Below, in pieces: positions 14,429 to 62,150 of a stretch of 64,000 nt of DNA; position 1 is the stretch's first letter; every line of letters starts with the position of its first letter. Below the pieces are notes generated by a model that did not search any database, was not told the DNA's origin, and saw only the letters and a list, made by a program, of their open reading frames with translations. Location: the NCBI GenBank assembly GCA_002722315.1, contig PBLG01000046.1, forward strand, positions 62,001 to 126,000, given 5' to 3'. The translations under genes were made by a program, and so were the position numbers. This DNA is from Lysobacterales bacterium. Lineage in GTDB: Bacteria > Pseudomonadota > Gammaproteobacteria > Xanthomonadales > Wenzhouxiangellaceae.

Positions 14429-14539
14429 GGTGGCCCCCGACCGCCCGATCCCGTCGCCCACGCTCCCGCTGCCGCTGCTCCCTTCCGGGCCTGACGGGGT
14501 TTACGGGTTAGTGGCGCGGGGAGACCGACGAGGACCACC
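14429..14539 (-). ncRNA. ffs: Signal recognition particle RNA (4.5S type)
   Basis: The minus strand carries the invariant apical SRP motif GTCAGGCCCGGAAGGGAGCA, in which the GGAA tetraloop and asymmetric internal loop bind Ffh. The ends pair: GGTGGTCCTC at the 5' end with GGGGGCCACC at the 3' end, giving a single long hairpin of 111 nt, the size of the E. coli 4.5S RNA. Together with Ffh it targets nascent membrane proteins to FtsY. An extended -10 promoter lies at the right distance and a T-tract follows the 3' end. Confidence 0.93.
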
Positions 14540-14654: not shown

Positions 14655-14710
14655 TACCGGCCTGCAAGCGCGCGAAGGGCCAGCGACCGCAGGTCGCGCA
14701 GTACTCCCTC
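14655..14710 (+). repeat. Half copy of the tRNA-insert element followed by a tRNA-Ser 3'-end remnant
   Basis: The stretch CGAAGGGCCAGCGACCGCAG and the following GTCGCGCAGTA match the 3' half of the insert unit at 14930-15011. It runs into CTCCCTCTCTCCC, which resembles the T-arm and acceptor end of the neighbouring tRNA-Ser. It looks like the remains of another interrupted tRNA-Ser copy. Confidence 0.55.
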
Positions 14711-14784
14711 TCTCCCGTTGCGCAGCAACGCCTGGTCGAGAGCGTGAGACAATAAGTTTACGGAGAGATGGCCGAGTGGCTGAC

Positions 14785-14874
14785 CCGAGCAACGCGAGGA
14801 CGATGTGGAAGCCGCGCAGCGGCTGAAGCAACCCGGAGCGAAGCGAAGGGCAAGCGCCGGAACGGCGCGCAGTC
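14785..14874 (+). repeat. Hairpin insert element in the D-loop of tRNA-Ser(GCU)
   Basis: A 90-base member of the CCGAGC...GCAGTC family. It contains the hairpins GCCGC-GCA-GCGGC and GCGCC-GGAAC-GGCGC; the first hairpin of the family is degenerate here. It follows GGCTGAC and precedes AACGCG. Confidence 0.85.
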
Positions 14875-14929
14875 AACGCGCTCCCCTGCTAAGGGAGTAT
14901 GGGGTCAAAAGCCCCATCGAGGGTTCGAA

Positions 14930-15011
14930 CCGAGCGCAGCGAGCTCACGAGCCCAGGCGCCGCAGGCGACTGGCGAGCCCGAAGGGCCAGCGACCGCAGG
15001 TCGCGCAGTAA
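14930..15011 (+). repeat. First of two tandem hairpin inserts in the T-loop of tRNA-Ser(GCU)
   Basis: A divergent unit that begins CCGAGCGCAGCGAGCT directly after GGTTCGAA and ends GCGCAGTAA. Its 3' hairpin is GCGACC-GCA-GGTCGC, a changed but still fully paired version of the family stem. Confidence 0.75.
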
Positions 15012-15100
15012 CCGAGCTGCGCGAGCTCGATGTGGAGGCCGCGAAGCGGCTGGAACAACCCGGAGCGGTAGCGGAGGGCAAGCGCCGAAGGTGCGCAGTC
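15012..15100 (+). repeat. Second tandem hairpin insert in the T-loop of tRNA-Ser(GCU)
   Basis: An 89-base unit that is typical of the family: CGAGC/GCTCG stem, GCCGC-GAA-GCGGC stem, then CCCGGAGCGGTAGCGGAGGG, then GCGCC-GAA-GGTGC and the terminal GCAGTC. The tRNA resumes with CATCCCTC. Confidence 0.85.
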
Positions 15101-15130
15101 CATCCCTCTCTCTCCGCCAGATACGACAAG

Positions 15131-61668: not shown

Positions 61669-61691
61669 AAAAAAAGCCCACTTTCGCGGGC
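61669..61691 (-). terminator. Rho-independent terminator of the tRNA-Ser(CGA) pair
   Basis: On the minus strand GCCCGC-GAAA-GTGGGC is followed by seven T residues, ten bases after the tRNA 3' end. Confidence 0.9.
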
Positions 61692-61699
61692 TCTTGATA

Positions 61700-61793
<94 letters not shown>

Positions 61794-61860
61794 GGAACTG
61801 TCAAATTGTAATCCGATCTTTGATCGGGCGGCCCTTTGCGGGCCGCGAGAGGGAGGGATT

Positions 61861-61950
61861 GACTGCGCACCTTCGGTGCTTGCCCTCCGCTACCGCTGCG
61901 GGTTGTTCCGGCCGCTGCGCGGCCTCCACATCGAGCTCGCTTACGCTCGG
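61861..61950 (-). repeat. Hairpin insert element in the T-loop of the tRNA-Ser(CGA) copy
   Basis: On the minus strand it starts CCGAGCGTAAGCGAGCTCG after GGTTCGAA and ends GTGCGCAGTC; a two-base AA is present on both sides (possible target duplication). Its last hairpin, GCACC-GAA-GGTGC, differs from the relatives by compensatory changes. Confidence 0.87.
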
Positions 61951-62004
61951 TTCGAACCCTCGAAGGGGCGTAAACCCCTTAACGGTTTTCGAGACCGCCG
62001 CATT

Positions 62005-62078
62005 GACTGCGCGCCGTGTCGGCGCTTGCCCTGCGCTTCGCTCCGGGTAGCTTCGCATCGAGCTCGTCTTCGGCTCGG
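62005..62078 (-). repeat. Hairpin insert element in the D-loop of the tRNA-Ser(CGA) copy
   Basis: A 74-base short version lacking most of the second hairpin. On the minus strand it starts CCGAGCCGAAGACGAGCTCG after GTGGTCGAA and ends GGCGCGCAGTC followed by AATGCGG. The 3' hairpin is GCGCC-GACAC-GGCGC. Confidence 0.87.
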
Positions 62079-62120
62079 TTCGACCACTCTGCCACCTCTC
62101 CAAAACTGGTCTAGTTGCGT

Positions 62121-62150
62121 ATTGTATCCAATGAGTACGGTATGTGCCAG
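62121..62150 (-). promoter_or_regulatory. Promoter of the tRNA-Ser(CGA) pair
   Basis: On the minus strand CTGGCA (62150-62145), an 18-base spacer and TACAAT (62126-62121). Start would be near 62114, 13 bases before the first tRNA. Confidence 0.65.

Follow-up and report, generated by a model that had tools for sequence, protein, structure and literature searches.

The closest described system to the feature reported here is the RtT repeat of the Escherichia coli tyrT locus, entered in Rfam as an RNA family (RF00391, rttR; gathering score 45 bits). To our knowledge, no role for the tyrT repeats has been accepted since they were described. That description, from around 1981, and an RNA product of tyrT are cited by way of a reference in PMC11623569. 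Partial tRNA copies are also known from integrating elements, which leave duplicates of tRNA 3′ ends behind, as reported in PMC9897764. We analysed a 64,000-nucleotide stretch of DNA from a Lysobacterales bacterium of the family Wenzhouxiangellaceae (the window; its genome is G000 and the Wenzhouxiangellaceae are the window's family below) and describe an unusual variant of the known but unexplained RtT-type repeat, in which an RtT-like insert lies inside a nearly full-length tRNA copy. No description of these tRNA-loop inserts was found among the literature titles and abstract openings searched, which lay mostly outside subscription journals.

The minus strand of the window carries at 62101-61847 a copy of tRNA-Ser(CGA) with two inserts of one family, in the D-loop and in the T-loop, followed in tandem by an intact tRNA-Ser(CGA) gene (61702..61793, minus strand, CCA encoded) that both ARAGORN and Rfam (60.1 bits) detect as a tRNA. 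The sequence-only reading had described this neighbour as uninterrupted, the tRNA parts of the two copies as identical and the insert boundaries as exact, and comparison with the intact gene bears this out. The tRNA 5′ part up to the D-loop TCGAA (62079..62101) and the anticodon arm, variable arm and T-arm up to TTCGAA (61951..62002) are the same as in the intact gene, to which all 87 bases ahead of the altered 3′ end are equal, and the junctions read TCGAA/insert/TGCGG and TTCGAA/insert/TCCC with AA flanks on both sides. The D-loop insert, with exact coordinates 62003..62078, is a 76-nt hairpin chain and the T-loop insert (61859..61950) one of 92 nt; they score 71.2 and 54.4 bits as training sequences of R1, a model built from 20 inserts of the window's family with tRNA parts and E. 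coli left out. The insert repeats of the window and an exact repeat of 54 nt far exceed chance. The acceptor end was likewise correctly described as CTCTCG without CCA: from 61858 downwards the minus strand reads TCCCTCCCTCTC and then GCGGCCCGC, and the altered acceptor 3′ strand TCCCTCCCTCTC followed by a GC-rich hairpin GCGGCCCGCAAAGGGCCGCC (61827..61858, minus strand) replaces CGCCA. Similar endings lie behind T-loop inserts in G017, G018, G022 and G005. Since the acceptor 3′ strand is altered and CCA is absent, we read the interrupted copy as a pseudogene, which should give no usable tRNA although it may be transcribed from its own putative promoter. This promoter, CTGGCA-18-TACAAT at 62121..62150 on the minus strand, was already pointed out in the earlier reading and is the sole promoter-like site found there (shuffles 0.1). 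The intact gene is preceded by a -10-like TACAAT (61805..61810, minus strand; a string match alone) and followed by a terminator-like hairpin (61672..61695, minus strand; chance expectation 1.2).

From the window sequence alone, neither the RtT link nor the downstream layout of the inserts nor their occurrence at further tRNAs is apparent. Like the units found in the window's family, the RtT units of E. coli tyrT are linked to a tRNA gene and contain a GGATGAGAAcC-like stretch and GGTTCGA ahead of the hairpin chain, and both kinds of chain share CGAGC-loop-GCGAG, GNA hairpins and CCCGAAGGGC before TCC and the tRNA 3′ end. The window copy has the same order of a chain and a tRNA 3′-end copy, with TCCCTCCCTCTC of the tRNA 3′ end behind its insert chain and an altered sequence thereafter. 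The RtT model matches downstream units of relatives over the full length of the model (GGAUGAGAAcC, GGUuCGA, hairpin chain, gUaA, then UCC and the tRNA 3′ end), with scores above the cut-off in G008 (60.7 bits), G030 (49.3) and G021 (47.8) and below it in G005, whose units reach 41.9 bits over the full model. At locus L388 (G008, contig C11), within the window's family, the 60.7-bit unit was seen by eye to lie behind a tRNA-Tyr-like gene, which is the E. coli arrangement. At E values up to 0.001, RtT was detected in 19 of 121 genomes of the order, six of them past the cut-off, and in one of 14 controls (E. coli); the same search gave no match in the window's own genome, and the interrupted copy itself did not match the RtT model at E values up to 5. 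Conversely, R1 locates all four E. coli inserts in the right places, weakly, with E values of 0.004, 0.004, 0.05 and 0.26 in 113 kb, where the best plainly unrelated hit had 0.37. From these sequence matches, the hairpin chains of the family are therefore likely, short of proven, to be akin to those of RtT. Unlike RtT, the family inserts sit at Ser, Thr, Arg, Glu and Gln tRNAs, lie also upstream within nearly whole tRNA copies, and occupy D-loops as well as, in another genus, anticodon loops.

Scanning 200 genomes of the order for a left-end pattern (TTCGAM-CCGAGC-hairpin-GCGAG) gave matches in 34, comprising 28 of the 35 genomes of the window's family and 6 of 165 from other families; the latter have one or two matches each, which look like chance. 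The window's own genome holds 11 such places, and the reversed control gave 3 in all. Linkage to tRNA genes was counted over 111 element rows from 60 regions, almost all of which surround hits picked by hand, and from five other sources, with a few rows perhaps counted twice at overlapping loci: 94 have an ARAGORN tRNA no more than 700 bp away, and all 94 are on the strand of that tRNA. The tRNA is upstream in 71 of these, 41 of which lie 69-86 nt behind it, and downstream in 23. The other 17 rows comprise 11 near contig ends, four farther off on the same strand, the tRNA-Ser(GCT) of the window, and one chance-like match within a gene (L135). A separate right-end pattern gave 28 hits in 14 genomes, 25 of them beside a same-strand tRNA, one at the Ser(GCT) of the window and two at contig ends. 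Altogether, inserts were found at 11 isoacceptors in the window's family. In the window's own genome the insert-bearing tRNAs have the T-loops TTCGAATCC, and several tRNAs with TTCGAA are insert-free. Inserts are also present in the single-contig genomes G015, G017 and G022 and are therefore not mere assembly artefacts.

Two layouts recur. In upstream units, as in the window, a tRNA copy, whole or truncated, carries inserts and precedes the intact gene; in downstream units, the intact tRNA comes first, and behind it lie a stretch often inverse to its 3′ end, then TTCGAA, then the insert and finally another copy of the tRNA 3′ end (up to 17/17 identical). A unit at Gln(CTG) in the window's own genome (L024, contig C15) has its chain directly after the inverted tRNA 3′-end copy, with neither TTCGAA nor the first hairpin. 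The comparison with relatives that had been proposed earlier covered 30 loci retrieved by the intact Ser(CGA) sequence, other Ser tRNAs among them; 15 of these loci have intact genes only and 15 hold an interrupted copy. D-loop inserts occur at 7 of these 30 loci; at 2, which belong to another genus, the anticodon loop holds inserts of another hairpin type. Ser(CGA) copies interrupted in both D-loop and T-loop were found in another genus as well, twice in tandem in G015 and also in G202, and the interrupted copies of G003, G004 and G147 have lost the anticodon arm. Loci L331 and L334 (G009 and G013), in another genus, carry upstream Ser copies whose anticodon loop holds a different chain of hairpins, three of these copies being in tandem in G009. 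In G160 (contig C249, L336), the sole Ser(CGA) found has a D-loop insert and is otherwise complete with CCA.

The window holds a second example on its plus strand, which the sequence-only reading had taken as the first interrupted copy and which belongs to another isoacceptor, tRNA-Ser(GCT) (14762-15119). It has one D-loop insert and two tandem T-loop inserts: the 5′ part (14762..14783) is followed by the D-loop insert (14785..14876), the part from anticodon to T-loop (14877..14929), which contains the sole Ser(GCT) anticodon arm detected in the genome, the two T-loop inserts (14930..15102, divided into 14930-15011 and 15012-15102) and the 3′ end including CCA (15103..15119). Another insert, in degraded form, is represented upstream by its right end (14670..14702, plus strand; R1 28.5 bits, E 4e-4). 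The window's genome, in an assembly that is 85% complete, has Ser(GCT) in this interrupted form only, and the 3′ strand of its D-stem is CGC, where relatives have GGC. As no Ser(GCT) anticodon arm of any kind was found in the G001 and G023 assemblies, drop-out of the Ser(GCT) locus from assemblies is plausible. Elsewhere, an intact Ser(GCT) is present at 28 of 30 loci inspected, and 11 of these 28 have partial copies (3′ copies at 8, 5′ copies at 4, both at 1), among them loci from families f3, f4, f7, f10 and f11; in f4, f7, f10 and f11, other hairpins occupy the same T-loop place. A small SRP RNA gene (window 14435-14530) adjoins the interrupted Ser(GCT), and SRP RNA is also found near Ser tRNAs at L039, L141 and L147. 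At L041, L050, L059 and L060, in other families, chains at the T-loop place have GGA loops in their first and last hairpins. GGA in a hairpin loop resembles CsrA sites, and at several loci a csrA-like sequence was noticed by eye ahead of Ser(GCT). The idea of a CsrA sponge for these GGA loops was set aside because GGA is rare in the loops of the window's family (3 of 127 triloops).

The earlier reading took the identity of the tRNA parts to mean that the insertion is recent or the copy under selection. This is not the best reading, given the like copies in another genus, the match of the tRNA parts to their intact neighbours and the altered acceptor. Seven genomes have both an interrupted and an intact copy; in each of them the closest match to the tRNA part of the interrupted copy is the intact gene beside it, and in six the two are identical, which argues that tandem copies are homogenised. 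While the tRNA parts track their own neighbour, the inserts vary from genome to genome, and insert change is fast between species. Taken together with the D-loop and T-loop layout in two genera, identity to the own neighbour indicates an old homogenised arrangement and no recent jump; the arrangement of inserts is neither unique nor recent.

The inserts, 40-129 nt in length, consist of 2 to 4 hairpins in a chain. In an alignment of 13 short inserts, 92.3% of cells are paired, both partners change in 7 pairs, and covariation scores 0.276, compared with 0.098 for shuffled and at most 0.043 for slid alignments. Perfect hairpins can also be kept without selection, by quasipalindrome correction. 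Across 89 distinct inserts, and counting stems of 5 or more, triloops are GNA in 93 of 121 cases and tetraloops GNNA in 28 of 38, compared with 10% and 11% in dinucleotide shuffles; the rest of the window has, on both strands, 7 GNA among 242 triloops and 5 GNNA among 206 tetraloops. Such GNA and GNNA loops are reported in PMC4686876 to form very stable DNA hairpins. When DNA energies are used, stability is greater for the tRNA-sense strand in 73 of 88 inserts and for the other strand in 10. The triplet after GCGAGnnC predicts the right end of the insert in 84 of the 89, which either base pairing or descent in subfamilies would explain.

The inserts of the family have exact junctions at TCGAA and TTCGAA, tRNA-adjacent sites, one orientation, covarying modules and DNA-type loops, and they recur across the family. 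We consider the chances about even that the region is a tandem pair, made up of a non-functional copy with RtT-type inserts and then an intact gene, whose inserts entered tRNA loops as folded single-stranded DNA. On this account, entry into tRNA genes would take place at the DNA level, with the tRNA-sense strand folded as a single strand and the exposed tRNA loop as the target; it would be followed by tandem amplification and then by gene conversion or homogenisation with the intact gene through recombination. Surviving loci would keep an intact copy because the copies duplicate in tandem and their tRNA parts are homogenised by recombination. We infer the single-strand step, an enzyme that moves the inserts and their present mobility. 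The account is weakened by the RNA energies, which also slightly favour the tRNA-sense strand (50 versus 34 of 88 inserts), and by the one-orientation rule, which would suit a role as RNA too.

Hairpin ends, a fixed short left sequence and the lack of a clear target duplication are shared with REPs and with non-autonomous elements of the IS200/IS605 type. Unlike these, the inserts sit beside tRNA genes and show no link to a Y1 transposase, for which their 40-129 nt would leave no room. Checks of the Y1 transposase and the integron integrase found no mover enzyme for the inserts. The Y1 transposase was rejected: it is absent from the insert-bearing genomes G001, G006 and G010, the insert motif occurs at none of 13 Y1 loci, and the two weak Y1 hits in the window's own genome have no motif nearby. 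The integron integrase was also set aside, as it matches in all 25 relatives (18 over the cut-off) and therefore offers no useful contrast with the presence of inserts. Integron attC sites have the crossover core boxes GTTRRRY and RYYYAAC, which by eye do not fit the insert boundaries TTCGAA/CCGAGC and CAGTCAA/TCC.

The main rival to entry as DNA is that the inserts act as putative structured small RNAs, comparable to the rtT RNA of E. coli tyrT, with the tRNA-like ends as processing sites and the hairpins selected as RNA. We regard this as rather unlikely, even though the interrupted copy has its own promoter-like site, all 94 tRNA-linked inserts share the orientation of the tRNA, RtT is entered in Rfam as an RNA and an RNA product has been cited for tyrT. 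The loops obey the DNA rule, as 18 of the 28 GNNA tetraloops are not GNRA and only 10 are, and the second hairpin of the 13 short inserts has G-U pairs in 2 cells and other mismatches in 14, against what an RNA role would favour. Moreover, many downstream units in the window's family are seen in the sequence to lie behind terminator-like hairpins, and the inserts change fast between species.

The T-loop and the anticodon loop are the usual crossover places of integrating elements. The partial tRNA copies could accordingly be duplicates of attachment sites, and the hairpins remnants of element ends; tRNA fragments of integrating elements are likewise partial copies beside an intact gene. We consider such integrase scars improbable: no integrated element was seen, the tandem units are short, about 130-270 bp with no gene seen in them, they carry the 3′ end of the local tRNA itself (up to 17/17), the hairpin chain lies in the loop, and D-loops hold inserts too. 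Introns cut from the RNA, leaving working tRNAs, would suit the identical tRNA parts of the window copy and the sole Ser(GCT) in G000 and sole Ser(CGA) found in G160 being interrupted, but are very improbable given the altered acceptor strand without CCA, the anticodon arms lost in G003, G004 and G147, the CGC of the Ser(GCT) D-stem, the two other assemblies that lack any Ser(GCT) anticodon arm, and the lack of any match of the inserts to an intron family.

Returning to entry as folded DNA, it is possible, though we advance it tentatively, that RtT repeats are members of a broad class of DNA hairpin elements which enter tRNA-gene loops in the form of folded single strands, carry an internal segment matching their right end and are moved by an enzyme. 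The same design is found at 11 isoacceptors in one family, and intact neighbours reveal the exact insertion points. Enough insert variants are available to read the folding rules, and whether the inserts work as DNA or RNA, and whether they are mobile or fixed, becomes testable. For annotation, tRNA fragments beside tRNA genes need not be the scars of genomic islands.
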